This document shows positions 8,758 to 48,065 of a stretch of 51,128 bases of DNA, one piece after another. The position numbers were made by a program, and so were the translations under genes. The stretch spans positions 1 through 51,128 of the forward strand of contig CADAZU010000006.1 of assembly GCA_902792535.1 (NCBI GenBank), given 5' to 3'. The notes beneath the pieces are model-generated. The model had not been told where the DNA came from. It saw only the letters and a list, made by a program, of their open reading frames with translations, and made no database searches. Numbering within the stretch: position 1 is the first letter of the stretch; each line of letters starts with the position of its first letter. The DNA comes from an uncultured Bacteroidales bacterium. GTDB lineage: Bacteria > Bacteroidota > Bacteroidia > Bacteroidales > Paludibacteraceae.

Positions 8758-8791
8758 AAGTGACCCAGTGACTAAGTACCAAGTACAAAGG
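8758..8791 (+). repeat. Dispersed short repeat, family A copy 1
   Basis: A run built from AAGTGACC, AGTGACTAAGTACC and AAGTACAAAGG units spans the pfp-to-next-gene junction and encodes the first residues of the following signal peptide. Confidence 0.75.
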
Positions 8792-9403
8792 AGTGTTTTG
8801 GGACTACTCCTGATGGTAATCAGCATGACCCTGTCCGCACAAGATTTCTCTGCGGACAGGGGCTTGTTTGACGCCTATCAGCGCGAGGATATGAGTGTGT
8901 GGAAGGAGTATCTGGAAGTACTAAGGGACAAAGTACCAAGTGACAAAGTACGCGATACAAAGGATCTTCTGTACGAATACGGGTATTGCGGATATATTGT
9001 AGCGGAGGCAAAGAAAGAGGGCAAGGAAGCATTGTTGCCCGAAGCCAAGCGGTACGTGCAACAGTTTCGCAAAGACGTAGAAGCAGCGAAAGGATCCTTA
9101 CCGGCAGGACATTACGAGATGTATATGTCAGCCGTCATGGTCTATGAAATGCGGCTTCATATTGCCATTCGCCCTGTCAAAGCAATGTCGCTGGCGAAAG
9201 AGGCAACCAAATTAGCACCCAAAGATCCACTGGTATTGGCGTATTACGGCACGTCGCTCTACTACGCTCCGGCTCCCTTCGGGAGCAAGAAAGAAGCGCT
9301 GCGCTATTTCAAGCAAGCCAAAGAGCTGTTCCAAGGACCGAAATGGGAGTACTGCTGGGTGCGCAAGGCGACAGAGATGTATATTAGGGGAATTGAGAAT
9401 TGA
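8768..9403 (+). CDS. Exported TPR-like hypothetical protein
   Basis: The 211-residue product has a signal peptide if GTG at 8768 is used (MTKYQVQRSVLGLLLMVISM, cleavage after LSAQ). The mature part is helical, with a tetratricopeptide-like stretch (PVKAMSLAKEATKLAPKDPL, then KKEALRYFKQAKELFQG). That suggests a periplasmic protein-interaction role. Alternative starts are TTG at 8798, preceded by AAAGGAG, and ATG at 8813; both give weaker signal peptides. Two copies of repeat family A lie in the coding region, one in the signal peptide and one encoding EVLRDKVPSDKV (8916-8951). The last codons are made by a third repeat (AATTGAGAATTGA). Confidence 0.7.
   Translation: MTKYQVQRSVLGLLLMVISMTLSAQDFSADRGLFDAYQREDMSVWKEYLEVLRDKVPSDKVRDTKDLLYEYGYCGYIVAEAKKEGKEALLPEAKRYVQQFRKDVEAAKGSLPAGHYEMYMSAVMVYEMRLHIAIRPVKAMSLAKEATKLAPKDPLVLAYYGTSLYYAPAPFGSKKEALRYFKQAKELFQGPKWEYCWVRKATEMYIRGIEN
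8916..8951 (+). repeat. Dispersed short repeat, family A copy 2 (in CDS)
   Basis: AAGTACTAAGGGACAAAGTA followed by CCAAGTGACAAAGTAC lies in frame within the TPR-like gene. It is close to copy 3 in rimO. Confidence 0.85.
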
Positions 9404-9415
9404 GAATTGGGAATG
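9389..9415 (+). repeat. Dispersed short repeat, family C (AATTGAG)
   Basis: Three GAATTGA-type units bridge the stop codon of the TPR-like gene (9401-9403) and the start codon of the thioesterase (9413). A weaker relative, TTGAGAGTTGAA, spans the uvrA start at 34430-34441. Confidence 0.75.
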
Positions 9416-10231: not shown

Positions 10232-10240
10232 TTTTCCGAG

Positions 10241-10276
10241 TGGCAGAAAGAAGACGTTTATCTGCCAAAATGGCAG
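10241..10276. promoter_or_regulatory. Palindromic operator-like site upstream of clpB
   Basis: CTGCCA (10262-10267), AAA, TGGCAG (10271-10276) is a perfect 15-bp palindrome. A third half-site TGGCAG is at 10241-10246. It lies about 100 bases before the clpB start. A heat-shock role is a guess from the neighbouring gene. Confidence 0.45.
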
Positions 10277-10372
10277 TTATTGGTTGCCGGGTATATTGTT
10301 TGTAGTTAAGAAGGTGACTAGGGTTTCAGGACACTAGGAGAATTGAAATTACTAACTAAACAATATACGACT

Positions 10373-12433: not shown

Positions 12434-13413
12434 TGAATAAAAAAAGCGGCTTATTTATAGGTCTGATAGTACTATTAGCCGGGCTGTTTTGCCTGGACGT
12501 ATGTAGCGGTAGCATGTGGTTATCGCCATGGGGGGAGTTGAACCCCATGGAGCAGAATATACTACATGCTATTCGTTTGCCTAAAGCCATTACGGCGGTT
12601 CTGGCAGGCGCTTCGCTATCCGTAGCGGGACTTATCATGCAGACGCTTTTCCGCAACCCTCTGGCGGGTCCGTACACATTGGGTGTATCGTCCGGCGCGA
12701 GTTTGGGAGTAGCACTACTGACGATGCTGTCTGCGGTCAGTTATCAGATTTCAGCCTTCAGCTTTCAACCGTCAGCATTCGGAATACCGATTGCAGCCTG
12801 TATTGGCGCAACGATGGTGTTGCTGCTGGTGCTCGGCGTGAGCCGGAGAGTGACCAGCAACGTCAGTCTACTGATCGTCGGAATGATGTTCGGTTCGATC
12901 GCAGGTGCGCTGGTGAGTCTGCTGCAGAACTTCGCTAATCCGGATGCGCTGAAGTTATTCATCGTCTGGACTCTGGGTTCGCTCAGCAGCGTCGGATGGA
13001 GCGACATGCAGTTGATGATCCCTATTCTGCTCCTCGGCGGAGTATTTGTGCTGCTGTCGCTGAAGCCGCTGAACGGATTGCTCTTAGGCGAAGACTACGC
13101 GCGCGGAATAGGTATTAATGTAACCCGCACGCGTCTTTATATAGTTTTGGCAACCGGTCTGTTAGCAGGCGGCGTGACAGCCTTCTGCGGTCCGATTGCG
13201 TTCATCGGCGTAGCGGTTCCTCATATAGCGCGAGGGATCTTCCGGACGACCAACCACCGCATAACGATTCCCGCAGCAGCTCTGATAGGCGGATGTCTGC
13301 TGCTGGTGTGCGATGTGCTCTGTTCGCTAGCTATTTACCCGCTGCCGATCTCCACTGTAAGTGCTCTGTTTGGTGCGCCGGTGATAATTTGGATTATTCT
13401 AAAAAAGCATTGA
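12433..13413 (+). CDS. FecCD-family ABC transporter permease
   Basis: This 326-aa polytopic membrane protein belongs to the BtuC/FecCD permeases, which import siderophores, haem or cobalamin together with a periplasmic binding protein and an ATPase. Diagnostic segments are RLPKAITAVLAGASLSVAG, FRNPLAGPYTLGVSSGASLG, GEDYARGIGINVTRTR and FCGPIAFIGVAVPHIAR. It begins inside the clpB stop codon, so it is translationally coupled to clpB. No binding protein or ATPase gene is nearby, so it is an orphan. An extramembrane loop (about residues 102-116, SYQISAFSFQPSAF) is coded by repeat family B. Confidence 0.9.
   Translation: MNKKSGLFIGLIVLLAGLFCLDVCSGSMWLSPWGELNPMEQNILHAIRLPKAITAVLAGASLSVAGLIMQTLFRNPLAGPYTLGVSSGASLGVALLTMLSAVSYQISAFSFQPSAFGIPIAACIGATMVLLLVLGVSRRVTSNVSLLIVGMMFGSIAGALVSLLQNFANPDALKLFIVWTLGSLSSVGWSDMQLMIPILLLGGVFVLLSLKPLNGLLLGEDYARGIGINVTRTRLYIVLATGLLAGGVTAFCGPIAFIGVAVPHIARGIFRTTNHRITIPAAALIGGCLLLVCDVLCSLAIYPLPISTVSALFGAPVIIWIILKKH
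12736..12780 (+). repeat. Dispersed short repeat, family B copy 2 (in CDS)
   Basis: Units GTCAGTTATCAG, ATTTCAGCCTTCAG, CTTTCAACCGTCAG and CATTC run in frame inside the permease gene. This is the clearest member of the TCAGCYTTCAGC family here. Confidence 0.8.
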
Positions 13414-13416
13414 TAT

Positions 13417-14232: not shown

Positions 14233-14260
14233 AAAAAGAGGCTTGCGAGCCTCTTTTTTT
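14231..14260. terminator. Bidirectional rho-independent terminator
   Basis: The A-run followed by GAGGCT pairs with AGCCTC followed by a T-run around the loop TGCG. It serves panB on the plus strand and the convergent gene 14278-15024 on the minus strand. Confidence 0.92.
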
Positions 14261-14277
14261 ATGCAGATACACATGCT

Positions 14278-15024: not shown

Positions 15025-15088
15025 AGTATTATTTTTTTAAGGTAAATTATGCTGTGTTTTAAATTTTCGCCGCAAAGTTAACACTTTT

Positions 15089-15120
15089 TTTGTATATATC
15101 AAAATTTTTTTGTAATTTTG
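15089..15120 (+). promoter_or_regulatory. Bacteroidetes-type promoter of the gal operon
   Basis: TTTG (15089-15092), 20 bases, then TAATTTTG (15113-15120), 38 bases before the galK ATG. The spacer begins TATATATCAAAA, shared in pattern with the promoters at 6281 and 29207. Confidence 0.8.
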
Positions 15121-15158
15121 CGTCAAATTTTTTCAAATACACTTAATTTATTATCACT

Positions 15159-16340: not shown

Positions 16341-16341
16341 T

Positions 16342-17337: not shown

Positions 17338-17338
17338 T

Positions 17339-19866: not shown

Positions 19867-19909
19867 TTGTGTATCAGCCGTGCATGGCTGATTGGAAGGG
19901 ATGTTCGGA

Positions 19910-21232: not shown

Positions 21233-21243
21233 AATTCTGTTAA

Positions 21244-23072: not shown

Positions 23073-26000
23073 TTAGAACTGGAGGCTGATACCCATAACG
23101 GTAGTCATGCTACGCGGATAGATGTTATTGTCAATACCTCCGCCGACCTCCGGGTCGAGTCCTTTGTAGTTAGAGAAGACGCACGGGTTGGATACAGTAA
23201 CGTACGCACGTCCCTGAACTTTCGTCTTGTTGAAGCTATAACCGAGCGTGATATTGTCAATACGAAGGAAAGATGCTTTCTCCACGAAGAAGTCCGAAGC
23301 ATACCAGTTGGAGTTCTTCACCAAAGCACCTTTGGAGTCCGTTCCCACTTCGTAAGCTTGGGTTGCATCGTTCCAAACGTACGTGCGGATATCATCGCTA
23401 CGCATGTTGTCTCCATAATAGCAGCTGAAAGCAGAAGTCAGGACAGAGTGGTAACCGCCATTCTGATTCTGGTAAACTTTATCTGCTTCTACCCATTGCA
23501 GGTTGCCAGCCAAGACATCATTGTATACATAGTTTCCGATATTCGAACGGAGCGTGATACCCAAGTCAAAGCCATAGAATTGGAACTTGGTCTGCAGACC
23601 CATTGTAACAGGAGCAGCGGGGTTGTGGTAGATATATTTATCGTTATCGTTGATCTGACCATCCTTGTTGCGGTCCACGAAATAATGACGTGTTACACCT
23701 TGATCATCGGTCATCGTCTTCGTCTCATAAACGAGGAAGGAATAAGCGGCTTCACCTACTTTATGCGCCTGGATCGTGTTACCGGTACCCGAGCTGATAC
23801 CTCCGGTCGGAACGAAGTAATCCGGATCGTCGGAGAGCAGCTGGGTGATCTTGTTCTGGTTCCAAGCTACGTTGTAGCCCAAGTCCCATTTGAAGTTCTT
23901 CGTATCCACGAGCACCGCATTGATAGCGAACTCAACACCTTGGTTGTAGAGGCTACCGATGTTACCGAGCATCTGGTTCTTGAAGTTCGAACCGGCAGAT
24001 ACGTTGACGGTACTGAGCAGGTCTTTGGTACGACGATGATAGTAGTCGATATTACCATTGATACGGTTGTTGAGGAAGGCGAAGTCGATACCGATATTGC
24101 TGGTATATGTTTTCTCCCAAGTCAAGTCGGTGTTATAGACGCCCGGACGGCTGGTATAATATACCGCGTTGCCGTTTGCATCTCTACCGGCGAAGAGAGG
24201 ATTGTCCTCGCCACCATCCAGAACGGGGTAATACGCGTGGTCTTGCGACGTAGCATAAGTCGGCAGGTAGTAGTAGTCCACACCCAAGTTCTGCTGACCG
24301 GTGATACCATAACCGATACGGAGTTTGAGGTCATTGATAGAATTGACATCCTTGAGGAAGGTCTCTTTGATCTTCCAACCGAGCGCTACAGAGGGGAAGA
24401 GTCCCCAGCGTGCGTTCTGTCCTTTCGAGTTATATTTAGCGAAACGAGAGGAAGCATCCGCACGGAAGGTAGCGGTAACGAGGACTTGGTCCCAACCATT
24501 CCAGTTGATACGTCCATAGACAGACTGGAGGGCATTATCCGTGATATAGGTATTGGTATATCTGTTATAGGGTTTTCCTGCCAATTCAGGATCCTTATTC
24601 GTGGTCTGGTAGAAACCGGAACCATCGCTCTGCGTTTTACGGTAGAAATACTGGTTCTCATAACCGACCATGACATCGAAATGCTGTTTCTCTTCTTCCC
24701 AATCGTGTCCGTATTGCGCATAAGCGGAGAACTGGAGGTTGTACTTGCTCATATCGCTCCAACCATCCCAACCGAAATAGTGGTTGTCATAGCTGTAAAC
24801 CGGCAAAGTCGTTTTCTGCTTACCGTAAGAGTAATCTGCTCCGAAGTTTGCATGGATATGCAGATCTTCGAGACCGTGAATCTTGTAGTCCGCTTCGATA
24901 TTTCCTACGAAGGAGCCTGCGTTTGCACGGTCATTCTTGTGTGCCAAAGCAGCAGCCGGGTTGCCGGTAGTCTGTGAGTTTTTGGTATAGGGCCATGCGT
25001 CATCGTTGTATCCGGAAGGAGAAACGATGCGCTGGTAGTATCCGTCGAACCAGTTATCGAGCACGTTCTGGGGTACGAGCACATCTCCGTTGGCGTTTAC
25101 CGCTCCACCTCTAACAGGCATAGTGGGATCCATCGAAAGAGCAGCGCCCACAACGGAAGCAGGATAGCGGTTGTAGATATACATACCTTTGGTATTGATA
25201 TTGAAAGCGAGGTGATTGTCCAAGAAGGACGGGCTGAGGTTCAAGGAAGCGGTAACACGCTGCATCTGGGAAGTCTTGATAGCACCATTCTGGAGGGTAT
25301 AGCCCACCGATGCACGATACGGCATGTCCACGATATTGTTCTTCACGCCACCCATAATTGAGATATTATGGTCGGTAGAGATCGTAGTACGGTAGATTTG
25401 GTCTTGCCAATCGGTACTTGCTGTTCCTAAGGAATTGGTTTTCTCTTCGTTATGGCCCAGAGCGGTAGCGTATCCGCGGAGTTGGTCAGCGGTCAGCACT
25501 TGTGTTCTATTGGTGAGCGTACCGATAGACATGTTACCGGCATAGCTTACTTTGGGTTTGCTGCCTTTTGCACCTTTCTTGGTGGTAATAAGGATGACAC
25601 CATTGGAAGCACGGCTACCATAGATAGCGGTAGCGGAAGCGTCCTTGAGGACGGTAAAGCTCTCGATATCGTTCGGGTTGACCATGGAGAGGGGGTTCGA
25701 TACACCCTGGATACCATTCTCATCCATTGCGAGTCCATCGATGACAATCAAGGGATTATTGGAAGCGTTGAGGGAAGCACCACCACGAATCGTGATTGCT
25801 CCGGCTCCACCCGGCGTACCATCCGCAGCGACTACGTTCACACCGGCAATCTTACCTTGGAGCATGTCTTGTGCGTTGGTCGTCAGACCTTTGTTCATAT
25901 CATCGGGTTTGATCGCAGTAACAGAACCGGTGGCGTCACCTTTCTTCACTACACCATAACCAACGACTACGACTTCCTCCAGCAACTCGGAGTCTTCTCC

Positions 26001-28762: not shown

Positions 28763-28917
28763 AGTTGGGTGCATTTTTTTGCATTTTTTGAGAATTTTGG
28801 GTTCGAAACGTATCGAAAGATTTCGGTTTGGAAAGGGGGAAATTCCATGTTCAGAGGGGGCTGTAGAGCATAGTGAGATTGTACTGAGATTATAGTGTGA
28901 AGCGCTTACTAACCTAC

Positions 28918-28972
28918 GAATCACCTATGAATCACCTAAGAATCACCTATGAATCACCTAAGAATCACCTAT
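28918..28972 (+). repeat. 11-base tandem array, five copies
   Basis: GAATCACCTAT and GAATCACCTAA alternate five times without gaps. The period of 11 bases is close to one DNA helical turn. Confidence 0.95.
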
Positions 28973-31562: not shown

Positions 31563-31600
31563 GAACCCCTCCCCGACCCTCCCCTCAAGGGAGGGAGAAG
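31563..31600 (+). repeat. C/G-rich palindromic element, family G copy 2
   Basis: ACCCCTCCCCGACCCTCCCC-TCAA-GGGAGGGAG fills the gap between recQ and rimO; CCCTCCC (31577-31583) pairs with GGGAGGG (31589-31595). The right arm may also act as ribosome-binding sequence for rimO. Confidence 0.8.
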
Positions 31601-31604: not shown

Positions 31605-32984
31605 ATGCAGAAAGGCGTAGTAGATTTTATAACGTTGGGATGCTCGAAGAATCTGGTGGATGCGGAGCGTGTAATGCGGCAGCTGGAGGCGGCTGGATGG
31701 CGGTGTGTGCATGACGCAGAGGATCCGAAAGGAGAGATTTGCGTGATTAACACCTGCGGTTTCATCGGCGACGCCAAAGAGGAGAGTATCAATATGATAC
31801 TCCGGATGGGAGAGCGGAAGAAGCAAGGGAAGCTGCGGAAGCTGATTGTGATGGGGTGTTTGAGCGAACGATACCGTGCGGAGCTGGAGGAGGAATTGCC
31901 GGAAGTGGATGCGTATTACGGGAAGTTCGATTTTGAGAACCTCACCCTATCCCTCTCTTTAGGAGAGGGGAATAAAGCCGGATTAAATCCGGCACAACAA
32001 AAGAAAGGGGCAAACGGGTGCGCTTCGTTTGAGCGGAAGCTGACGACGCCGAAGCATTATGCTTATCTAAAGATAAGCGAAGGGTGCAACCGGTTCTGTT
32101 CGTATTGCGCGATACCTTTGATCACAGGCAGGCATACCAGCCGACCGAAAGAGGAGATACTGGACGAGGTGCGATGGCTGGTGAGCCAAGGCGTGAAAGA
32201 GCTGAACGTCATTGCACAGGATCTGAGCAGCTACGGAATGGACCTGGAGGGAGATAAGTCGGGCGTTAGGGGAAAACATCTGTTGCCGGAGCTGATTGAC
32301 GAGATGGCGCAAGTGCCGGGCGTGGAATGGATCCGACTGCATTACGCTTATCCGACGGATTTTCCGGAAGGGCTGCTGGATGTGATGGCGAAGCACGCGA
32401 ATGTGTGCAAATACTTAGACATCGCTTTGCAGCATTGTACGGACCATATGCTGGGGTTGATGCGGCGGCATATAACAAGAGCTGAACAAGACGCGCTGAT
32501 CAAGAGAATACGCGAGAAAGTGCCGGGGATTTGCATTCGCACAACGCTGTTAGTGGGTCATCCGGGTGAGACAGAAGAAGATTTTGAGGAGCTGAAAGAA
32601 TGGGTGAAAGAGATGCGTTTCGAGCGGATGGGTTGTTTTGCGTACTCGGACGAGGAAGGAACTTATGCGAACAAGCATTACAAGGACGATATTCCGCAAG
32701 ATGTGAAAGACGCGCGTGCGGCAGAGTTGATGGCTATTCAGCAGGAGATCAGCGGCGAGCTGATGCAGCGGTTTGTGGGGAGGACAGAGAAAGTGATTAT
32801 TGACCGCGAGGAAGGCGAGTATTTCATCGGAAGGACGCAGTATGACAGCCCGGAGGTGGATTGCGAAGTGCTGATAAGTACCAAGGGACAAAGTACCAAG
32901 TGCCAAGCAGGGGAGTTTTATGAGGTGGAGATCACCAAAGCGGAGGAGTTTGACCTATACGGCGTGATTAAAAGAAAATTATAG
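31605..32984 (+). CDS. rimO: Ribosomal protein S12 methylthiotransferase RimO
   Basis: RimO is a radical-SAM enzyme that methylthiolates an aspartate of ribosomal protein S12. The 459-aa protein has the UPF0004 domain (DFITLGCSKNLVDAE, INTCGFIGDAKEES, VMGCLSERY; cluster cysteines in these motifs). The radical-SAM motif is CNRFCSYC (C161, C165, C168), then the TIM barrel and a C-terminal TRAM domain. Two stretches look inserted relative to other RimO proteins. About residues 112-141 (LTLSLSLGEGNKAG then LNPAQQKKG) are coded by palindromes. Residues 424-434 (STKGQSTKCQA) in the TRAM domain are coded by repeat family A. Reading frame and catalytic residues are intact, so the enzyme is probably active. 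Confidence 0.95.
   Translation: MQKGVVDFITLGCSKNLVDAERVMRQLEAAGWRCVHDAEDPKGEICVINTCGFIGDAKEESINMILRMGERKKQGKLRKLIVMGCLSERYRAELEEELPEVDAYYGKFDFENLTLSLSLGEGNKAGLNPAQQKKGANGCASFERKLTTPKHYAYLKISEGCNRFCSYCAIPLITGRHTSRPKEEILDEVRWLVSQGVKELNVIAQDLSSYGMDLEGDKSGVRGKHLLPELIDEMAQVPGVEWIRLHYAYPTDFPEGLLDVMAKHANVCKYLDIALQHCTDHMLGLMRRHITRAEQDALIKRIREKVPGICIRTTLLVGHPGETEEDFEELKEWVKEMRFERMGCFAYSDEEGTYANKHYKDDIPQDVKDARAAELMAIQQEISGELMQRFVGRTEKVIIDREEGEYFIGRTQYDSPEVDCEVLISTKGQSTKCQAGEFYEVEITKAEEFDLYGVIKRKL
31936..31993 (+). repeat. Family G copy 3 plus adjacent hairpin, inside rimO
   Basis: CCCTCTC (31951-31957) pairs with GAGAGGG (31963-31969). GCCGGATT (31977-31984) pairs with AATCCGGC (31986-31993) around one base. 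Both lie in frame in rimO, between the UPF0004 and radical-SAM domains. Confidence 0.85.
32876..32907 (+). repeat. Dispersed short repeat, family A copy 3 (in rimO)
   Basis: AAGTACCAAGGGACAAAGTA followed by CCAAGTGCCAAG lies in frame in the TRAM-domain coding region. Confidence 0.9.
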
Positions 32985-33277: not shown

Positions 33278-34429
33278 ATGGCAGAGAAACTAAGTTGGAC
33301 GGAGTTGCGTCGTGCTTTGGCGGTTCGCGCCGGAGTGAGTGAGAAGACAGCAGGGTTGTTTCTGAACGGATATATCAGCCAGTTGATCAATGGTCTCAAG
33401 GACGACAAGCAGGTGAAGATCAACGGTTTAGGCACATTCAAGTTGCAAGCCGTTGCTCCTCGTAAGAGCGTGAATGTGAGCACCGGAGAGGAGATCGTCA
33501 TAGAGGGTTACAACAAGATTGTTTTTTCGCCGGAGGCAGGTCTGAAGGAGCTGATTGAGAGCCAGAAGCCATCAGGTGTCAGCCTTCAGCCGTTAGTCTT
33601 CAACGACCAGCCGGACGAAGGTGATTTTCCGATTGATCCGATCAAGAAATTAGGCGAGCAGGCGGACGAGATCGTGGGTCTGCTGGCAGAGATAGACAGC
33701 ATCGAAGAGCCGAAGGAGCCGGAGGTTCCTGAGGTGCCGGAAGAGCCGGAAGTTGTTGTAGAGGAGCCGAAGGTGGTTGCGGAGGAACCGGAGGTTGTTG
33801 CGGAAGAGCCGAAGGTGGTTGCGGAGGAACCGGAGGTGGTTGTAGAGGAACCTGAGATTATTGTGCAGGGACCGGAAAAGCCGGAGAAGAAGAAATACCA
33901 TTTCTTCCGGGATGTGCTGATCTGCGTATTGATTTTATTACTGCTGCTGGCAGGCGGATATTTCTTCCTTCGCAGCCAATTAAGCGGTATATTGGAATCG
34001 ATGTTGAAGCCTGAACCGGCGCAAACGGAACAGGTGGAAGAGCAGAAAGAGGACGATGAGGGAGAAGAGGATCCTATGATAGCTCTGATTCCCGAAGGCG
34101 ACATCCCGCAAGAACAGATTTTGGAGGAGTTTAACGCCATTTCGGGAGAGCCGGATGAGGAGGCGTATTCCGATTTGATCACGATAGAGCCGATGCATGA
34201 AGGCAGCCGGTTGACATGGATGTCCAAACGGTTTTACGGCGACAAGCGTTTCTGGCCGTACATATATGACGCCAACCGAGACCAGATTGTCAATCCGAGC
34301 AATATAGAAGTGGGTACTCCGATTCGCGTACCGCGGTTGACACAGGCGCAAATGGACACGACAAATAGCGCAGCCATGGAAGCATTGGAGAAATTGCGGA
34401 TCGAGGCAGAGGAAGCGTGCAAGAAGTAG
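33278..34429 (+). CDS. HU-like domain / membrane / LysM fusion protein
   Basis: The first 95 residues of this 383-aa protein are HU-like (SWTELRRALAVRAGVSEKTA, KINGLGTFKLQAVAPRKSV). A Pro/Glu/Val repeat follows (EEPEVV, EEPKVV units, about 150-200). One transmembrane helix is at about 212-232 (DVLICVLILLLLLAGGYFFL). An acidic linker and a C-terminal LysM-type domain complete it (TWMSKRFYGDKRFWPYIYDA, NIEVGTPIRVPRL, about 305-355). The predicted topology puts the DNA-binding domain in the cytoplasm and the LysM domain, which binds peptidoglycan, in the periplasm. Similar fusions exist in Bacteroidetes but their role is not established to my knowledge. Confidence 0.85.
   Translation: MAEKLSWTELRRALAVRAGVSEKTAGLFLNGYISQLINGLKDDKQVKINGLGTFKLQAVAPRKSVNVSTGEEIVIEGYNKIVFSPEAGLKELIESQKPSGVSLQPLVFNDQPDEGDFPIDPIKKLGEQADEIVGLLAEIDSIEEPKEPEVPEVPEEPEVVVEEPKVVAEEPEVVAEEPKVVAEEPEVVVEEPEIIVQGPEKPEKKKYHFFRDVLICVLILLLLLAGGYFFLRSQLSGILESMLKPEPAQTEQVEEQKEDDEGEEDPMIALIPEGDIPQEQILEEFNAISGEPDEEAYSDLITIEPMHEGSRLTWMSKRFYGDKRFWPYIYDANRDQIVNPSNIEVGTPIRVPRLTQAQMDTTNSAAMEALEKLRIEAEEACKK
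33571..33604 (+). repeat. Dispersed short repeat, family B copy 3 (in CDS)
   Basis: ATCAGGTGTCAGCCTTCAGC followed by CGTTAGTCTTCAAC is in frame just after the HU-like domain (SGVSLQPLVFN). Confidence 0.65.
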
Positions 34430-34436: not shown

Positions 34437-37190
34437 TTGAAAGAAGATTTTATTCGCATAGAGGGAGCTGACACCCATAATTTGAAGCATGTGACGGTAG
34501 ATATACCGCGCAACAAGCTGGTGGTGGTAACTGGTGTGAGCGGCAGCGGCAAGAGTTCGCTGGCGTTCGACACGCTGTATGCAGAGGGTCAGCGGCGGTA
34601 CGTCGAGAGCCTGAGCGCTTATGCCCGTCAGTTCATGGGCAGGATGCAGAAGCCGGAGGTGGAGAAGATCGAAGGTATACCGCCTGCTATCGCTATTCAG
34701 CAGAAAGTGACAAGCCGCAATCCCCGTTCAACGGTCGGAACCGTGACGGAGATTTATGACTACTTGAAGTTATTGTACGCGCGCGTGGGCAAGACGTACT
34801 CGCCCGCGAGCGGAGAAGAGGTGCGCAAGAACACGATCCGCGACGTGGTACAATACATGGAGGAGCAGAAAGAGGGTGCTCGTCTGTATCTGCTGAGTCC
34901 GATTGTGCTGCCGGAAGGCCGCAGTCTGCAAGAGCAGTTGGCGCTATGGCAAAGCCAGGGTTTCAGCCGAATGATGATAGACGGCGACGCAGTCCGGCTG
35001 GACGAGCACACATGGGAAAAAGCAGAAGGGCACGAGGCTTATCTGCTGGTTGACCGCATCGTAGTGGATCATGAGCAGGCGACGAGTAACCGTTTTGCGG
35101 ACAGCGTGCAGACCGCGTTCTTTGAGGGGCAAGGCGAATGCCAAGTGGAAGTATTAAGTGACCAAGGTCCAAGGACGAAGGTGTTCTCGGAGCGGTTTGA
35201 GGCGGACGGAATACAGTTTATCGAACCGAGCGAGCACTTGTTCGATTTCAACAACCCGGTGGGAGCTTGTCCCGAATGTAAGGGCGTGGGAATGGTAATG
35301 GGTATTGATGCCGACCTGGTAGTGCCCGACAAATCGAAATCAATCTACGAGCAGGCTATCGCTTGCTGGCAGAGCGAACAGATGAAGCCGTGGCTGGACG
35401 CGCTGATATTCAACGCGGCGAAATTCGATTTCCCTATTCACACGCCGTTCTACGCGTTGAGCGCGGAGCAGAAACAGCTGCTATGGAGCGGCAACGAGTA
35501 TTTCCGCGGGTTGCATGAGTTCTTCAAGGAATTAGAGGAGAAGCAGTACAACCGGATTCAATACAAGGTAATGTTAGCGCGGTTCAAAGGCAAGACCACT
35601 TGTCCTGTGTGCAAGGGATTTCATCTGCGCAAAGAAGCGGAGTACGTACAAGTGAACGGCAAGAGCATCCAGCAACTTTGCGCGATGCCGATCACGGAGT
35701 TGGACGAATGGTTCAGCCATATCCAGTTGAACGAGACGGAGCAGAAGACAGCCGAGATGCTGCTGGTGGAGATCAAGAGCCGGTTGCAGTTCATGAAAGA
35801 TGTGGGGTTGAGTTACCTGACGCTGAACCGTCAGAGCAACACCCTGTCCGGCGGCGAGAGCCAGCGTATCAATCTGGCTAAGTCGTTGGGAAGCAGTCTG
35901 GTGGGTTCGCTGTACGTGCTGGACGAGCCGTCGATCGGTTTGCACCCGCGCGACACGGAGCGGCTGATCCATGTGCTGAAGGAATTGCGCGACCTGGGTA
36001 ACACGATCGTGGTGGTGGAGCACGACGAAGATATCATTGCGGCAGCGGACCATATCATCGAGATCGGTCCCGCGGCAGGCAGACACGGCGGCGAAGTGGT
36101 CTATGAAGGCAAGCCACGACCGGAGCTGTTCCACTACGAGATCCCTGCGCAACGGCGGCATTGGAACAATTATATCGAGATCGAAGGGGCTTGCGAGAAC
36201 AACCTGAAGAACCTGACGGTCCGTTTTCCGCTGCATGTGATGACGGTGGTGACGGGTGTGAGCGGTAGCGGTAAGTCGAGCCTGGTGAGCAAGGTGCTCT
36301 ACCCTGCCCTGAAGAAACATTACGGTGGTGTTTTCGCGGAACATACCGGCGATTTCGGGCATTTGCGAGGCAGTCTGCAGTTGATGCAAGATATTGAGTT
36401 TGTGGACCAGAACCCGTTGAGCCGTTCGAGCCGCAGCAACCCGGTGACGTACCTGAAAGCGTACGACGATATCCGGCGACTGTTTGCCGAGCAACCGCTG
36501 TCCAAACAGTTGGGACTCACACCGGCTCATTTCTCGTTTAACACGCCCGGCGGACGTTGCGAGACCTGCCAGGGCGAAGGCACGATCACGATCGAGATGC
36601 AGTTTATGGCAGACCTGGTATTGGAATGCGAGCAATGCCACGGCAAGCGGTTCAAACAAGATATTCTGGATGTCCATTACCGCGGCAAATCGATCTACGA
36701 CATCCTGTGCATGACGGTTAACCAAGCGGTGGAGTTCTTCAGCGAAGACCCCGATTGCGCCAAGATCGTGAAACGGTTGAAACCGCTGCAGGACGTGGGT
36801 ATCGGGTATGTGCAGTTGGGACAAAGCAGCAGCACGCTGTCCGGCGGCGAGAGCCAGCGCGTCAAGCTTGCGTCCTTCCTCGCGCAAGAAGAGAACCGCC
36901 CGACGATCTTTGTGTTCGACGAGCCGACGACAGGTCTGCATCACAGAGATATCGAAGTACTGCTCGTCGCGCTGAACAGACTGATCAGCAAGGGTCACAC
37001 GGTCATTATTATCGAACACAACCCGGCTGTGATTTTGGCGGCGGACCATGTGATTGACTTGGGTCCCGAAGGCGGCAAAGAGGGCGGACAGATTGTCTGT
37101 GAAGGAACGCCGGAGACGATCGCAGCATGCAAAGAAAGTTACACGGGCAAGTATATCGCCCAAATCATACAAAACACAAAGCAACTATGA
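34437..37190 (+). CDS. uvrA: Excinuclease ABC subunit A
   Basis: UvrA recognises DNA damage in nucleotide excision repair and loads UvrB. The 917-aa protein has two ABC ATPase modules, each with Walker A GVSGSGKSS and signature LSGGESQR, and zinc motifs CPECKGVG, CPVCKG and CETCQGEG/CEQCHGKR. The start is TTG at 34437, the only start candidate in position before RIEGADTHNLKHV, inside an AGTTGAGAGTTGAA repeat. Bacteroidetes often carry two UvrA paralogues; which one this is cannot be told here. Residues about 240-247 (SDQGPRTK) are coded by a family A repeat. The last codons overlap the next gene by ATGA. Confidence 0.95.
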   Translation: MKEDFIRIEGADTHNLKHVTVDIPRNKLVVVTGVSGSGKSSLAFDTLYAEGQRRYVESLSAYARQFMGRMQKPEVEKIEGIPPAIAIQQKVTSRNPRSTVGTVTEIYDYLKLLYARVGKTYSPASGEEVRKNTIRDVVQYMEEQKEGARLYLLSPIVLPEGRSLQEQLALWQSQGFSRMMIDGDAVRLDEHTWEKAEGHEAYLLVDRIVVDHEQATSNRFADSVQTAFFEGQGECQVEVLSDQGPRTKVFSERFEADGIQFIEPSEHLFDFNNPVGACPECKGVGMVMGIDADLVVPDKSKSIYEQAIACWQSEQMKPWLDALIFNAAKFDFPIHTPFYALSAEQKQLLWSGNEYFRGLHEFFKELEEKQYNRIQYKVMLARFKGKTTCPVCKGFHLRKEAEYVQVNGKSIQQLCAMPITELDEWFSHIQLNETEQKTAEMLLVEIKSRLQFMKDVGLSYLTLNRQSNTLSGGESQRINLAKSLGSSLVGSLYVLDEPSIGLHPRDTERLIHVLKELRDLGNTIVVVEHDEDIIAAADHIIEIGPAAGRHGGEVVYEGKPRPELFHYEIPAQRRHWNNYIEIEGACENNLKNLTVRFPLHVMTVVTGVSGSGKSSLVSKVLYPALKKHYGGVFAEHTGDFGHLRGSLQLMQDIEFVDQNPLSRSSRSNPVTYLKAYDDIRRLFAEQPLSKQLGLTPAHFSFNTPGGRCETCQGEGTITIEMQFMADLVLECEQCHGKRFKQDILDVHYRGKSIYDILCMTVNQAVEFFSEDPDCAKIVKRLKPLQDVGIGYVQLGQSSSTLSGGESQRVKLASFLAQEENRPTIFVFDEPTTGLHHRDIEVLLVALNRLISKGHTVIIIEHNPAVILAADHVIDLGPEGGKEGGQIVCEGTPETIAACKESYTGKYIAQIIQNTKQL
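35156..35176 (+). repeat. Dispersed short repeat, family A copy 4 (in uvrA)
   Basis: AAGTGACCAAGGTCCAAGGA lies in frame in uvrA ahead of the segment KVFSERFEADG. It is a degenerate copy. Confidence 0.6.
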
Positions 37191-41989: not shown

Positions 41990-41995
41990 TATATC

Positions 41996-43138: not shown

Positions 43139-44219
43139 TCCTCCTGCCGCTCCGGGCTATCTGCCGCGACTGCGGTATCTGTGCGACTACTTCGTGCGGA
43201 AAGGATATGATGTGACCCTGCTGACCGAGGAATACCAACCATTACCTTTCGCTCATACATACCCCATTGAGACCGTCCGGATGTACAGCGGCGGCACGCT
43301 CGATTGGCTGTTCAAATCCGTTTGGACGCTCCTCACCAACTGGCATGACCGCGCCTTTGCGCAAAGAGCACTACAAGAAATCGTAAATCGTAAATCGTCC
43401 AATCGTACCTCCTACGACCTCGTCGTTTGCTCCTCTTTCTCCGACTTCCCCTTGGGAGCTGCGCAGCGGATTGCCAAGCAACTGAACGTGCCGCTGGTAT
43501 GCGACATCCGCGACTTGGACGAACAGGTGGAGGACTCGCGCTACCAATACAAACATCAATCGCGATGGTTAATGCCTTTCCGGCGTCTCTACCGCGCAAT
43601 CCATATCCGCCGCAGGAATGCCGTTCTGCGCGCGGCGGACGCAATCACAACCGTCTCGCCGTGGCATGTTGCCTTCCTGAAGCAGTTCAATCCCAACGTC
43701 CATCTGGTCTATAACGGCTTCGACGAAGCACAGTTCTATCCGCAGGACATACAGACAAAGGAGTTCCAAGTCACATATATCGGCAGCTTGTTCGAATGGC
43801 AGAAAGAGGCATTGGCAAAAGTGCAACAAGTAGTGCCGGTAACCATCCACACGCCGCAAAGCGACCCGGTCTCACATAACAAGTTGGGCGATGCCATACG
43901 CGAAAGCAGCATCATGATCGTGCTCACGAACACCAACACACATGGTATGCTGACCACCAAGTTCTACGAAGCGCTAGGGTGCGAAAAAACCATCCTCTGC
44001 GTGCCTTCCGACCAAGGCGAGTTAGCCAAACTGATCCGATACACCAACGCAGGCATTGCCACCGACGATATAGAAGAGATCAAAGCGTTTATCGCCGAGA
44101 AAAAACACGAATGGAAAACCAACGGTTTCACCCGCCAGCAGACACTCCACCGCGAAGAGTTCTCGCGCGAAGCGCAATGCCGACAATTTGAAGAAATAAT
44201 ACAACACTATCTATCATGA
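43113..44219 (+). CDS. Glycosyltransferase, GT4-like
   Basis: The 368-aa enzyme has the GT-B pattern: MKRLLVVSDPPAAPGYLPRL and RYLCDYFVRKGYDVTLLTEE at the N-terminus, DAITTVSPWHVAFLKQF, HLVYNGFDEAQFYPQD and a C-terminal nucleotide-sugar site (TKFYEALGCEKTILCVPSD). ATG 43113 is chosen because upstream residues in the longer frame do not resemble the family; it then overlaps the deacetylase by 26 bases. Residues 89-98 (EIVNRKSSNR) are coded by repeat family D. It overlaps the next gene by ATGA. Confidence 0.9.
   Translation: MKRLLVVSDPPAAPGYLPRLRYLCDYFVRKGYDVTLLTEEYQPLPFAHTYPIETVRMYSGGTLDWLFKSVWTLLTNWHDRAFAQRALQEIVNRKSSNRTSYDLVVCSSFSDFPLGAAQRIAKQLNVPLVCDIRDLDEQVEDSRYQYKHQSRWLMPFRRLYRAIHIRRRNAVLRAADAITTVSPWHVAFLKQFNPNVHLVYNGFDEAQFYPQDIQTKEFQVTYIGSLFEWQKEALAKVQQVVPVTIHTPQSDPVSHNKLGDAIRESSIMIVLTNTNTHGMLTTKFYEALGCEKTILCVPSDQGELAKLIRYTNAGIATDDIEEIKAFIAEKKHEWKTNGFTRQQTLHREEFSREAQCRQFEEIIQHYLS
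43377..43408 (+). repeat. Dispersed short repeat, family D copy 1 (in CDS)
   Basis: GAAATCGTAAATCGTAAATC followed by GTCCAATCGTAC is in frame in the glycosyltransferase and yields IVNRKSSNR. The second copy is at 47956. Confidence 0.95.
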
Positions 44220-45253
44220 AAAAAATACTATTACTCGTAGTACTCAGTACTTTGTCCTTTGGGCTTTTCGCTTGGAACAGCCCGGTTACCATTCCGGACG
44301 TCGGCAACGCACGTCTGCGCATCGTGGGACAGAACGCAGCGAACTATGTATCAAACTTGGAGTCCTCCAACTCGTCCTGCGACACACAGGAAGAGTTTGA
44401 ATCCAAAACCAATAAGATTGCCAATGCCTTTATTGCGTTGCAGGCAGATATTGTTGCCATTTGCGAAGTGGAACGAAACGACGATATTCTCGGCTATATA
44501 GTAGATGCGATGAATAGCATCTACGGCGAGAATGTCTATACCTATATCACGGACGGGCTGTACGCACATGCCTCTTCGGGGAATTACCAAAGTCTCAAAT
44601 CCGGTTATATCTACCGCACGGACAAAGTGACGCCGCAAGGTAACAACACTTCCCCTTACCGCTCCGGCGAATACTGCGCACGGCTGCGCATACAAGCCTT
44701 CAAAGAGAATAGCACGAATGAGAAATTCATTCTCTCTATGAACCATTTCAAGGCGAAAGATTCTTCCGCCGATGCCGGAGAAAGCACCCGTTTGCAGAAT
44801 GTGTCCAACCTGATTTATGCGCTGGGCAACATCACTTCTGACCCGGACATTCTGATCATGGGGGATCTCAATTCATACATGGGAGAAGCACCCATTGAGG
44901 CATTAGAAGAAGAAGGGTTCGAAGAACAGCTGGTACGCTTTGACTCAAACGCTTATTCCTATATCTACCGCGGTCAGAAAGGCATCTTGGACCACGCGAT
45001 GGCGAACAGCACGATGGCAGAGCAAGTCACGGGCGCACGCGTGTACCATATTAATACCGCCGGAGGATATAACTACAAATACTCCGACCATGACGCCGTG
45101 CTGGTGGGACTCAATTTAGGCAAACAGCAACAGAAGTCGGGGCTCGACGACCTCTCGACGACCTCTCGCGCGCACAAGGTTCTTCACAACGGACAATTAT
45201 ACATTGAGATAGACGGTATCCGCTTCACCATAACCGGCACAAAGATCCAATGA
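44216..45253 (+). CDS. Secreted endonuclease/exonuclease/phosphatase family protein
   Basis: The 345-aa protein has a signal peptide (MKKILLLVVLSTLSFGLFAW) and an EEP fold: DIVAICEVERND (metal-binding glutamate), LSMNHFKAKDSSADAG, ILIMGDLNSYMGEAP and a terminal KYSDHDAVLVGL with the catalytic histidine. It would hydrolyse phosphodiester bonds in nucleic acids or lipids outside the cytoplasm. It ends with the shared tail pattern NGQLYIEIDGIRFTITGTK, preceded by a tandem CTCGACGACCT duplication. It overlaps both neighbours by 4 bases and sits between two glycosyltransferases. Confidence 0.9.
   Translation: MKKILLLVVLSTLSFGLFAWNSPVTIPDVGNARLRIVGQNAANYVSNLESSNSSCDTQEEFESKTNKIANAFIALQADIVAICEVERNDDILGYIVDAMNSIYGENVYTYITDGLYAHASSGNYQSLKSGYIYRTDKVTPQGNNTSPYRSGEYCARLRIQAFKENSTNEKFILSMNHFKAKDSSADAGESTRLQNVSNLIYALGNITSDPDILIMGDLNSYMGEAPIEALEEEGFEEQLVRFDSNAYSYIYRGQKGILDHAMANSTMAEQVTGARVYHINTAGGYNYKYSDHDAVLVGLNLGKQQQKSGLDDLSTTSRAHKVLHNGQLYIEIDGIRFTITGTKIQ
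44241..44262 (-). repeat. Dispersed short repeat, family A copy 5 (in signal peptide)
   Basis: TACTCAGTACTTTGTCCTTT then GG is the reverse orientation of family A and codes for LSTLSFG of the nuclease signal peptide. Confidence 0.7.
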
Positions 45254-45921
45254 TCAGCATCATCGTTCCCATATACAATGCCGAGCGCTATCTGGATGGT
45301 TGCATGGATAGTTTGCTTTCGCAGACCGAGAAAGAGTTGCAAATCATTCTCGTGGACGACGGCAGCACGGACGGTTCTATCGCGGTAGCAAAGAACTACA
45401 CGGCGCATGATTCGCGCGTGGAACTATACACACAGTCCCACGCAGGGCAATCGGCGGCAAGGAACGAAGGGATGCGGCATGCCAAAGGTGAGTATATCGC
45501 GTTTGTGGACGCAGACGACAGCCTTGAGCCGGAATGGTGTGCGCAATACCTGAAAGCGATAGAGGGAGTGGATTACGTGCAGGGAGAAGCGCCCCGCAAC
45601 CGATTCACATACACGGTCGTCTGGGGAAGACTCTACCGCCGTAAAGCGATCCAAAACCTGCATTTCGAAGAAGGAATGATCTATGAGGACATCCTTTGGT
45701 CGGTCGATCTATGGCTTAGTGGCGCTACCTGCCGCATGATCGATTACAAAGGTTACCGCTACACGGCGAATCCGCATAGCACCACTTCGCAGCGGCATCC
45801 CGAAGCAGAGAAACGCGTCTTTGCCGAACTCAGGAAGCGCCTTCCGAGGGCTTCGCTAAAAGGAAAAATGATTATTTTATACACTATAATACGTCTAAAA
45901 CTACACTTTATAAAACAATGA
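45250..45921 (+). CDS. Glycosyltransferase family 2
   Basis: The 223-aa protein has the GT-A start MISIIVPIYNAERYLDGCMD, IILVDDGSTDGSI (nucleotide-binding aspartates), GQSAARNEGMRHAKGEY and AFVDADDSLEPEW (DxD). The C-terminal part is short, ending in basic helices (RLKLHFIKQ), so it is a compact member of the family. It probably adds a sugar to the glycan assembled by this cluster. It overlaps the nuclease and the PL9 gene by 4 bases each. Confidence 0.93.
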   Translation: MISIIVPIYNAERYLDGCMDSLLSQTEKELQIILVDDGSTDGSIAVAKNYTAHDSRVELYTQSHAGQSAARNEGMRHAKGEYIAFVDADDSLEPEWCAQYLKAIEGVDYVQGEAPRNRFTYTVVWGRLYRRKAIQNLHFEEGMIYEDILWSVDLWLSGATCRMIDYKGYRYTANPHSTTSQRHPEAEKRVFAELRKRLPRASLKGKMIILYTIIRLKLHFIKQ

Positions 45922-48065
45922 AAAAGCTTTTCTTAACCTTGGTCCTTTGTACTTGGTCACTTAGTCACTTTGCAGCCACCTATTACGCTTCGCCGAACGG
46001 CTTGGGCGACGGCAGTTCGTATTTCTCCCCCACTACGTTTGCTGCGGGTGTGGGTCTGTTGAGCCAACCCGGCGACACACTCTATCTGGTTGAAGGCACA
46101 TACGAATTCACGGACAAATTCAGCATCAACAAGCAAGGTTCCGCCTCCAAACGGATCGTCATCTCCGGCTATCCGGGCGATAAGGTGACGCTGGATTTTC
46201 ACAAAGTGCCGTACGGCACGCGCGGCATTACCGTGCATGCCAACTCGCTCTACGTCCATATCAAAGACCTCGCAATCGCTTGGTCAGGCAAGAACAACCT
46301 CTATAACGAAGGCTCGTACTGTCTCTTTGAGAACCTCGATATATACGGTTCGGCGGACACGGGCTGCCAGATGAAGAAAGGCGGCAATAATGTGATTCTC
46401 AATGTGGACAGCCACGATAATTTTGACTACGAAGAAGGCTTGGCCCCATCTAAAAATCAAAATGGGCCTGCTAACTTCGGCGGTAATGCGGATGGTTTTG
46501 CAGACAAGCAGTTCACCGGAGCAGGAAACCACTATATCGGTTGCCGCGCATGGAACAACTCGGACGACGGATGGGATTTCTTCCAGCGCGTCAGCAATTC
46601 GAATACCATCATTGAGAATTGCGTTTGCTACCAAAACGGACCTGCGTTCTACGACATGAGCCAAAACCCGCGTGCGACAGGCGTGGACAAAGTGTGGTTT
46701 GATCAATATGTGGGGACATCTGTTGTGGATCGATATGGCAATACAATTACTATTTCTTTGGAACAATTTCCGAATTTAGGCAACGGCAATGGTTTCAAGA
46801 TGGGTGGAGATCACACCGACCATAAGATCCTCATTCACCACTCTCTCGCCGTAGCGAACCGCGAGCGTGGTTTTGACCAAAATAACAACAACGGCACGAT
46901 GTGGGTATATAACAACTCGGCGTACGAGAACGGCTATAATTTCGGTTTCACGATCGCCTATGGTACCAACTACATGCGCAATAACATCAGCCTCAGCGGA
47001 AAAAATGCCGACCAACCGAAGTCGCAGAACAATGATGCGAATGACCATAACACATGGAACAGTGGTTTTAATTGCTCCGCCTCGGATTTCCGGTCGCTGG
47101 ACACCACCCAGATACTGGCTCCCCGCATGGCGGACGGTTCGCTGCCGGAAGGCACGTTCATGCGCCTCAACACCACCTCTTCTCTCATTGATGCCGGAGC
47201 GGATGTCAATCTCGGCTATAATGGTCTCGCCCCGGATTTAGGATGTTTCGAGGCTGACGGAGAGCGGCATGACCCGATTCCCGAAGATACGATCCCTGCG
47301 GTGCAACCCGAAGGGACGCACGCCGTTGCTTTTGTCACCATCCTTGGCGCACAAGAGGACAAAGCCTTACTCCACTATCTGCGTCAGAACGACAGCCTCT
47401 GGATCGTTGAGACCGACGCTACAGACGCTACCACCGACTACAGCGGCTACGAAGTGATTGTATTAGGAAGCAAACCGAACAGCAGCGCTCCCGGATTTAC
47501 GCCGCTGAAGGGTTACGACAAGCCGATGGTGTTGCTCAAACCCTTCCTGCTCAAATCCGGAGTATGGGGATGGGGAACAGCCGTTAACACCTCCGACCTC
47601 TCTGTCTCGGTGACGAACAGCAAACATCCGCTGTTCGAGGGACTAACCCTCACCGAAGGCGAGTTGCAACTCTTCAGCCAATGTAACACCAACGCCGTCA
47701 CCGCCATCTCTGCGTGGACCGCAACAGAAGGTGTGGAGACACTTGCTGCCCCCGTTTCCAACAACGAAGCCTCCTCCATCGCCATCCTGCCTGCCGGAAC
47801 CGATTGCAACGGCACTACCCTGCCCCAACGGATGATCATGATCGGCGTGTCGGAATACTCCACCGCGTATCTCTCCGCCGACGGTATGCGCCTCATCGAG
47901 AACGCTATCTGCCTTCAGCTCGGCATCGGGAACAACCACCCTGCCGGCGTGGAAACAATCGTAAATCGTAAATCGTCAAATCGTAAGTTTATATATGATG
48001 GTCAACTCTTTATTCAAGCGGGCGACGCTCTCTATGATTGCGCTGGTCGCCGCGTTAACCGTTAA
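45918..48065 (+). CDS. Secreted pectate lyase-like protein (PL9 type beta-helix)
   Basis: The 715-aa protein has a signal peptide (to about residue 19) and a right-handed beta-helix with PL9 landmarks: YYASPNGLGDGSS, GPANFGGNADGFADKQ, GNHYIGCRAWNNSDDGWDFF, NPRATGVDKVWF and AYENGYNFGF. PL9 enzymes cut polygalacturonate by beta-elimination, with a lysine base and calcium. A second domain (about 480-680) of uncertain type follows. A repeat-coded linker IVNRKSSNR and the shared tail YDGQLFIQAGDALYDCAGRR end the protein. Residues of the signal peptide (7-18) are coded by a family A repeat. The last 71 bases overlap the next gene. Confidence 0.88.
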   Translation: MKKLFLTLVLCTWSLSHFAATYYASPNGLGDGSSYFSPTTFAAGVGLLSQPGDTLYLVEGTYEFTDKFSINKQGSASKRIVISGYPGDKVTLDFHKVPYGTRGITVHANSLYVHIKDLAIAWSGKNNLYNEGSYCLFENLDIYGSADTGCQMKKGGNNVILNVDSHDNFDYEEGLAPSKNQNGPANFGGNADGFADKQFTGAGNHYIGCRAWNNSDDGWDFFQRVSNSNTIIENCVCYQNGPAFYDMSQNPRATGVDKVWFDQYVGTSVVDRYGNTITISLEQFPNLGNGNGFKMGGDHTDHKILIHHSLAVANRERGFDQNNNNGTMWVYNNSAYENGYNFGFTIAYGTNYMRNNISLSGKNADQPKSQNNDANDHNTWNSGFNCSASDFRSLDTTQILAPRMADGSLPEGTFMRLNTTSSLIDAGADVNLGYNGLAPDLGCFEADGERHDPIPEDTIPAVQPEGTHAVAFVTILGAQEDKALLHYLRQNDSLWIVETDATDATTDYSGYEVIVLGSKPNSSAPGFTPLKGYDKPMVLLKPFLLKSGVWGWGTAVNTSDLSVSVTNSKHPLFEGLTLTEGELQLFSQCNTNAVTAISAWTATEGVETLAAPVSNNEASSIAILPAGTDCNGTTLPQRMIMIGVSEYSTAYLSADGMRLIENAICLQLGIGNNHPAGVETIVNRKSSNRKFIYDGQLFIQAGDALYDCAGRRVNR
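45938..45971 (-). repeat. Dispersed short repeat, family A copy 6 (in signal peptide)
   Basis: CCTTGGTCCTTTGTACTTGG then TCACTTAGTCACTT, the reverse orientation of family A, codes for LVLCTWSLSHF in the PL9 signal peptide. Confidence 0.9.
47956..47987 (+). repeat. Dispersed short repeat, family D copy 2 (in CDS)
   Basis: CAATCGTAAATCGTAAATCG then TCAAATCGTAAG is in frame between the catalytic part and the tail of the PL9 protein, and lies just upstream of the next gene's start codon. Confidence 0.95.

Follow-up and report, generated by a model that had tools for sequence, protein, structure and literature searches.

Can short tandem repeats spread through a genome, enter the coding regions of conserved genes and stay there in frame? 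The question is raised by a 51,128-nt stretch of DNA from an uncultured Bacteroidales bacterium of the family Paludibacteraceae (contig CADAZU010000006.1 of assembly GCA_902792535.1; hereafter the window), in which an earlier reading made from the letters alone (the sequence-only reading) described several families of short repeats, A to E, dispersed between and within genes. We found that these repeats belong to a larger set, namely tandem arrays of 7- to 8-nt units in many heptamer families, in one genus of uncultured gut Bacteroidales. They stand in frame within conserved proteins, among them DXS (an isoprenoid synthesis enzyme, by its Pfam assignment), RimO, UvrA and a FecCD permease. At sites shared by orthologous genes, which we call sockets, unrelated contents are exchanged for one another, in DXS and RimO even between this species and its sister.

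A draft genome of 2.37 Mb, 83% complete, contains the window as its contig 6. Tandem arrays were called at lags of 7, 14, 15 or 8 nt in a 450-kb sample of this genome, and a third-order Markov copy of the 450 kb served as the simulated control for autocorrelation. The map of open reading frames (ORFs) consisted of the longest non-overlapping frames and is crude. Family A was searched genome-wide as a 22-mer with up to three mismatches, with the reversed pattern as the control. The relatives (genomes are numbered with G, loci with L) are all other species, mostly represented by draft genomes, and the nearest of them is a separate species. The DXS set comprised this species and the 29 best of 177 congeners searched. 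Socket contents were labelled by hand-written motif rules, and the evidence for loops is the position of insertions and deletions relative to the structures 2o1s (DXS) and 4jc0 (RimO). Assembly error is an unlikely source of the sockets, because the arrays are shorter than usual reads and the genes are intact through the sockets.

The repeats are far more numerous than chance would give, which bears out their description as dispersed families. Family A occurs at 51 places in the genome, against 0 for the reversed control, and the 450-kb sample holds 107 arrays, against 3 in simulated sequence (57 against 0 for period-7 arrays with a score of at least 10). Autocorrelation is highest at lag 7, with 8.9 runs of at least 10 matches per 100 kb, against 0.0 in the Markov copy; lesser peaks lie at lags 11, 14, 15, 21 and 22. 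The 65 period-7 arrays of this sample fall into 36 heptamer classes, so that the families listed from the window are a small part of the whole. Across 19 genomes, 261 period-7 arrays form 122 classes, and the chance that two arrays share a class is 0.0131, about 13 times the value for random heptamers of this genome (0.00102). Class sharing is about three times as frequent within genomes (0.0317) as between them (0.0106; 0 of 200 permutations), and in many cases unlinked loci carry the same heptamer unit, both in this genome and in relatives.

The distribution of the repeats is narrow and patchy. Among 61 genomes (this one, 36 congeners and 24 from other families of the order), family A is present in 22, all of the same genus, with 29 copies in G008, 25 in G034 and 0 in many congeners. 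A scan of one genome per species over 84,980 species gave at least 113 stretches of family A; the 80 of these that were listed all come under Bacteroidales, Paludibacteraceae or Bacteroidia, with ruminants as a frequent source, and on these 80 matches the possibility that family A is shared with cyanobacteria was rejected. The density of period-7 arrays ranges from 0 to 32 per 100 kb over 39 sampled genomes of the genus, on 9-138 kb for each genome examined, and 7 of the 39 have no such array in 9-59 kb each, among them G028 with 59 kb. In other families of the order the density is 2.4 per 100 kb over 18 samples, 4 of which have any.

The arrays recur at the same sites in orthologous genes. 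At 20 array sites, four of them weak copies from the window that were added by hand, there were 132 orthologous comparisons, and in 45 of these the relative also has an array; 120 random sites gave 976 comparisons, of which 14 have one. Without the four added copies the figure is 35 of 101. These comparisons share ancestry and are not mutually independent, and two of the 20 sites have no orthologue. The length differences, zeros included, are divisible by three in 116 of the 132 comparisons; in the controls, 908 of 976 are of equal length. The sequence-only reading had looked to clean insertions and target duplications as a sign of mobility, a picture that is not supported: in relatives, unrelated repeats have taken the place of the loop, and their edges vary in position by a few codons. 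No target duplication, terminal inverted repeat or common terminal sequence was seen by eye in the site alignments, and no systematic scan was made. Nor do all relatives carry the same sequence at the same sites, since the orthologues mostly differ.

Turnover was followed in DXS, which has three sockets. Over 30 species these hold many kinds of heptamer array, the palindromes CCCTCCCCTCAAGGGAGGGAG and CAGTCCGAAGGACGGTCTG, the tandem GACCGGCTTCGCC, other sequence, or next to nothing, and they coincide with length differences relative to the DXS of 2o1s. Mean pairwise identity among the 30 genes is 0.33, 0.44 and 0.44 in the three sockets, against 0.73-0.81 in their flanks, and four control windows in DXS remain within 0.02 of their own flanks. 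On a DXS tree built without the sockets, the fewest changes of content class are 14, 19 and 20 among the 30 species, numbers that stand without a shuffled baseline. Between this species and its sister G155, whose DXS core is 94% identical, all three DXS sockets differ, and the RimO socket differs as well; between G155 and G106 (95%) the first DXS socket is common and the other two differ. In the 13 pairs whose cores are 0.86 or more identical, 38 sockets were classified, and 27 of these differ.

In the same 13 pairs the replaced tracts are mostly short. Where the content of a socket differs, the mean identity of the flanks is 0.70, 0.86, 0.90 and 0.92 at 0-15, 15-30, 30-60 and 60-150 nt from the socket (34 flanks); where the content is the same, it is 0.91, 0.88, 0.92 and 0.94 at the same distances (17 flanks). 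Both series omit the short stretch between the second and third DXS sockets. As the divergence lies mainly within 15 nt, replacement mostly covers the socket and little beyond it.

The three DXS sockets of one genome also resemble each other in part. Sharing of 6-mers among them is 0.111 within a genome (66 pairs) and 0.038 between genomes (1884 pairs; 0 of 1000 permutations), and the control windows give 0.011 within and 0.009 between. For example, AATTCAC arrays occupy all three sockets in G196, and TCAGC-type arrays all three in G110. Such sharing at non-homologous sites suggests that the donors tend to come from the same genome. Two further observations concern socket contents. Two species far apart on the DXS tree, L346 and L369, carry at socket s2 of DXS a nearly identical element of 73 nt, in which CCCCGAGAGTTCTACGGACGG stands close to the start and GGGAGGGAG at the end. 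At L077 10839-10872 of this genome, the sequence is GATGTACGAAGGAACGATGTACGATGTACGAAGG, and at the same socket G153 (L352) has GAAGTACAAAGGAACAATGTACAATGTACAAAGG, with CG against CA in all four units; the uniform change over four units hints at a concerted change of dialect.

In the window itself, the repeats are placed as follows.

392-432, plus strand: family E, octamer array of TCATTCGT in 5.1 copies, intergenic by the crude ORF map (Tandem Repeats Finder score 68).
8756-8780, plus strand: family A, degenerate copy just 3' of the gene at 7101-8753; in a gap if the next gene starts downstream, as judged.
8916-8951, plus strand: family A with a 15-nt period, AAGTACTAAGGGACAAAGTACCAAGTGACAAAGTAC, in frame as EVLRDKVPSDKV.
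9390-9411, plus strand: family C, three copies of AATTGAG that form the last codons and the stop of the upstream gene (GIEN and stop), directly 5' of the next start.
12744-12780, plus strand: family B (TCAGC type), in frame in the FecCD permease as SYQISAFSFQPSAFG.
31577-31597, plus strand: palindromic element P1, CCCTCCCCTCAAGGGAGGGAG, intergenic and directly 5' of rimO.
31949-31969, minus strand: P1-like palindrome (four mismatches allowed), in frame within rimO, peptide LSLSLGEG.
32876-32907, plus strand: family A socket in the TRAM domain of RimO, peptide STKGQSTKCQ.
33575-33606, plus strand: family B socket behind an HU-type domain, SGVSLQPLVFND.
35149-35178, plus strand: family A socket where the UvrA interaction domain ends, peptide VLSDQGPRTK.
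43378-43407, plus strand: family D socket in a glycosyltransferase, peptide EIVNRKSSNR.
44246-44266, minus strand: family A antisense, in the hydrophobic part of a signal peptide, LVVLSTLSFGLFA.
45948-45971, minus strand: family A antisense, in a signal peptide, LVLCTWSLSHFA.
47957-47986, plus strand: family D in a beta-helix protein, close to its C-terminus, ETIVNRKSSNRK.

Six places had been claimed for family A, in both orientations, and they were recovered: strong matches lie at 8916-8937, 8931-8952 and 32876-32897 (0.00 expected by chance from 100 shuffles), and degenerate copies at 8756-8780 and 35149-35170 as well as at 44246-44266 and 45948-45971, the last two on the minus strand. A weak family A match at 25400-25419 is probably due to chance. 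The array at 8916 is intergenic by the crude map, yet it is in frame in an overlapping ORF. The two copies of family D (43378-43407 and 47957-47986) and the family E locus, given earlier as 387-435 and here as the intergenic octamer array at 392-432, likewise hold. For family B, said to have three copies, exact cores are present at 12751-12762 and 33579-33590 and no third stands out in the window. Family C has its clear copy at 9390-9411; the sole other candidate for its supposed weak copy, at 46610-46623 with two mismatches, does not stand out.

The sockets of these genes vary among relatives in several ways. That of RimO, which coincides with a length difference relative to RimO 4jc0, contains AAGTACC/AAGGGAC here, AAAGTTG in G155, AAAGGCG in G034, GGAAATT in G003, TTGGTCA in G015 and G030, AAAGTCG in G102 and a TCAGC-type repeat in G152. 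RimO 4jc0 is also four residues shorter at the P1-like site (31949-31969). Behind the HU-type domain (33575-33606), four of the four relatives of one comparison are 21 nt shorter. At the UvrA socket, 7 of 17 relatives are 12 nt shorter, 5 are of equal length, and 3 of the remainder hold arrays. Of six relatives compared at the glycosyltransferase, G018 shares the family D repeat, three have other arrays and two have none.

The position of the arrays agrees with the earlier claims that the repeats are dispersed in both orientations, that they lie in frame within genes, and that they occur in loops, signal peptides and gene ends. By the crude map, 64 of the 107 arrays of the 450-kb sample are in ORFs: 39 mid-gene, 14 within 90 nt of the start and 11 within 90 nt of the end. 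The other 43 are intergenic, an enrichment, as intergenic sequence makes up about 9% of the sample; for 30 of these 43, an ORF starts downstream no more than 30 nt away. Intergenic arrays have a G+C content of 26%, against 48% for mid-gene arrays. Further host proteins, named from translation only, we take to be CoaE-, LepB- and DapB-like.

The reading frame of family A was studied in 36 distinct copies with up to four substitutions, from 30 loci and the sample, rather than at all 51 places of the genome-wide search. An open frame of at least 100 codons contains 35 of the 36. Sense frame 2 (VPSDQVPSTK) is used by 18 copies, antisense frame 0 (LVLGTLSLGT) by 11, sense frame 1 by four and sense frame 0 by two, while antisense frames 1 and 2, though open in the consensus, are used by none (chi-square p 1.7e-8 against six equal frames). 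On this strongly uneven use, a frame-blind reading of family A at the level of DNA only was rejected. All four copies in sense frame 1 have GGGAC or GCGAC and not the common variant that yields a TGA stop. The sense strand gives hydrophilic loops and the antisense strand hydrophobic stretches; 6 of the 11 antisense copies lie 30-39 nt behind an ATG in typical signal peptides, e.g., MKNVLNKLVLGTLFLGTLFFASC. Judged by frame use and distance to ATG, the same DNA repeat thus supplies loops when read from one strand and signal peptides when read from the other.

The palindromic element P1 (CCCTCCCCTCAAGGGAGGGAG) occurs at 34 places in this genome, 56 in G034 and 9 in G038, which belongs to another family. 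Its palindrome is preserved through paired changes, and in relatives it also occupies protein loops, including DXS sockets. The heptamer arrays are direct repeats; palindromic elements occupy the same sites too.

Several other repeats were observed beside these families. Arrays that repeat ACCTATGAATC, a unit of 11 nt, and reach a length of 151 nt (28912-28972 in the window; L087 17466-17616; L076 2526-2559; L079 15029-15105), form a second tandem family with a different period and are intergenic by appearance. Pairs of 11-nt direct repeats spaced by 11 or 22 nt are found at L072 17131, L074 3737 and 8614, L075 2705 and 3058, and L077 9226 and 9348; this spacing is reminiscent of LytTR-type regulator sites, for which the pairs would be candidates. 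Within the window, the HU-like protein has a Glu/Pro/Val-rich tandem repeat of 21/42 nt, EEPEVVAEEPKVV, at 33704-33876, apart from the heptamer families. At 45143-45168, 2.4 copies of CTCGACGACCT near a gene end (DDLSTTSRAHKVLHNGQ) make an in-frame short repeat at a C-terminal linker, and at 6836-6872 a 12-nt unit, AATGTCCTAGAA, in 3.1 copies encodes NVLENVLENVLE within a 225-aa protein.

What process would fill the same loops with unrelated repeats? On balance, we think it probable that short patches are replaced from the cell's own pool of repeats and that the outcome is filtered by what the protein tolerates. Each genome would hold a pool of many families of tandem 7- to 8-nt arrays and short palindromes, copies of which would overwrite stretches of the chromosome, mostly of about 20-80 nt and with edges within about 15 nt. 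Copies that strike a folded core, break the frame or carry stops would be lost to selection, and the survivors would gather in loops, linkers, signal peptides and gene ends, with the AT-rich ones just 5' of starts. A permissive loop that is struck repeatedly would have its content exchanged, and if the donors are mostly copies from the same cell, each genome would acquire its own dialect of repeats. The dispersal, the frame use, the unrelated contents at common sites, their exchange among sister species, the short tracts and the sharing within genomes are observed; from these patterns we infer a copying step, enzymes to perform it and some reason for a unit of seven. The copying may be a short-patch non-allelic replacement, e.g., template switching or single-strand integration at microhomologies. 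In short-patch double illegitimate recombination (SPDIR), a short heterologous patch replaces recipient DNA at microhomologies; the short tracts seen here would fit this process. As to the unit, one idea cited in PMC4679880 is that the polymerase contacts a stretch of 7 nt; for the origin and spread of heptamer repeats, the same text states that 'no mechanism is evident'.

A number of observations weigh against replacement from the cell's own pool. In the close pairs, 11 of the 38 classified DXS sockets are unchanged; among the six sites compared with the sister G155, the HU-like and UvrA sockets are kept; and both family D copies are kept in G018, which for the beta-helix protein is the sole relative compared. 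The sharing of 6-mers is partial, exceeding 0.2 in 12 of 66 same-genome pairs and in 73 of 1884 others. No single replacement event has been caught between strains. Because many heptamer classes are rare (122 among 261 arrays), local birth by slippage must also occur. Finally, RecJ and MutS are present in nearly all genomes, so there is no obvious repair defect as the cause. RecJ reportedly suppresses the illegitimate integration of short fragments in Acinetobacter. A RecJ match was found in 40 of 41 genomes (39 over the cut-off) and a MutS match also in 40 of 41 (38 over the cut-off), this genome being included in each case, and the loss of RecJ and the loss of mismatch repair were both rejected on these counts. 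The Y1 transposase of the RAYT kind reaches 20.2 bits in this genome (83% complete), below the cut-off of 23 bits, and spread driven by a RAYT was set aside for that reason. Thus neither a simple defect nor that transposase explains the repeats; other enzymes were not searched.

Ordinary homologous recombination could exchange socket alleles between species and carry the socket along. One case looks like such allelic exchange: at DXS s2, L364 departs from L352, its near-identical sister, along some 60 nt of the left flank, and about 26 nt on the inner side of that flank agree with L353, which also goes against short replacement tracts. In addition, the edge ACAGACCGAATtacagtacggaaagg is common to L351, L364 and L373 around two different cores. 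However, over the 34 flanks of differing sockets the drop in identity is confined to the first 15 nt, and exchange between alleles leaves unexplained both the vocabulary shared by non-homologous sites of one genome and the arrival of repeats in new genes; we consider it unlikely. A mobile-element system, in which a transposase or reverse transcriptase moves the repeats as RAYTs move REPINs, would suit the high copy number, both orientations, the patchy spread of family A and the paired changes in P1. Against it, the sites show no common ends or target duplication by eye, many unrelated families meet at one site, and Y1 is over the cut-off in 12 of 41 genomes, this one not among them, reverse transcriptases and other transposases lying outside the search. 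Family A occurred in 0 viral contigs by exact matches to a degenerate pattern, on which phage spread was rejected as well. Such a system seems to us slightly less likely still.

Local slippage with a preference for 7 nt could make arrays afresh at each permissive site, and it has in its favor the autocorrelation peak at 7, the wealth of classes, and a survey in which, for most genomes, heptamers ranked first in abundance among the long simple repeats (Mrazek 2007, cited by PMC4679880). But a compound unit, AAGTACCAAGTGACA, recurs at many loci, an identical 34-mer stands at L077 10839 and 14044, class sharing is 13 times the background, and slippage cannot make the palindromic elements that occupy the same sockets, so that slippage alone is disfavored and, in our estimate, improbable. 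It is more doubtful still that the arrays are kept for a function, as binding sites for translational regulators or as ready-made peptide modules. Their closeness to downstream starts and the plausible signal peptides of antisense family A would agree with this, as would the regulatory role proposed for TAACTGA repeats in PMC4679880, as far as its accessible text goes; yet the content of a site often changes wholesale between sister species, and some genomes of the genus lack period-7 arrays in the 9-59 kb sampled.

A broader proposition may be put forward tentatively: throughout the genome, an ongoing process rewrites essential proteins at their permissive loops and signal peptides, using interchangeable short repeats of the cell's own, and at such a pace that sister species come to differ in most sockets of an essential enzyme. 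If true, this would be a third mode of protein change besides point mutation and domain shuffling, i.e., the swapping of loops by self-spreading micro-repeats, with a dialect for each genome. These bacteria would then be a natural experiment, with unrelated sequences placed over and over into the same loops of important enzymes. From it one could draw a direct map of insertion tolerance in proteins, obtain a clock for the replacement of short patches and ask how arrays of 7-nt units originate and become dispersed. It would also be a warning that alignment gaps in these genomes are not simple insertions or deletions.

How do these repeats compare with known systems? We found no paper on in-frame repeats in the loops of Bacteroidales proteins or on combinations of heptamer repeats with Rickettsia palindromic elements, in a literature of which the subscription part was mostly beyond reach. 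REPINs, which are moved by RAYTs, are likewise short dispersed elements, and P1 is a conserved palindrome of REP size; here, however, no RAYT is over the cut-off, and tandem heptamers are not hairpin doublets. The small dispersed repeats (SDR) of Nostoc are very small, insert into genes and RNA genes, and form palindromic families. Small size and insertion in genes are thus alike. To our knowledge, the swapping of unrelated contents at one socket is not described for Nostoc SDR.

Heptamer arrays have been described from cyanobacteria, Beggiatoaceae and some Bacteroidetes (PMC4679880); in the genome examined there, the TAACTGA repeats lie mainly outside genes, and those in proteins are mostly peripheral, at the ends. 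The earlier remark that the units here differ from those of Rickettsia and cyanobacteria holds in part: a unit length of seven was already known, and the TAACTGA class is represented by one period-7 array each in G015 and G035 (none in the 450-kb sample of this genome), while other defining features differ. The short tandemly repeated repetitive sequences (STRR) of cyanobacteria and the TAACTGA repeats are like these in forming heptamer arrays at many loci, with several heptamers per genome and often just before starts. In contrast to their mainly intergenic position, 64 of 107 arrays here are in ORFs and 39 are mid-gene, and loop content is exchanged between species. The Rickettsia palindromic elements are dispersed and in frame within conserved proteins, where their effect is tolerated (PMC2229807, in its accessible text), and in this they are like the repeats here. 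They are, however, palindromes of 105-146 nt with inverted ends, whereas the repeats here are direct repeats of 7-8 nt, mostly less than 80 nt in total (17-113 nt for the heptamer arrays of the 450-kb sample), in many unrelated families that replace one another; P1 is palindromic but far below 105 nt. The STRR repeats and the Rickettsia palindromic elements are the closest in kind, but each has a defining feature that is not found here. With the exchange of socket content as the part for which we found no precedent, we regard the repeats described here as a variant of dispersed small repeats.

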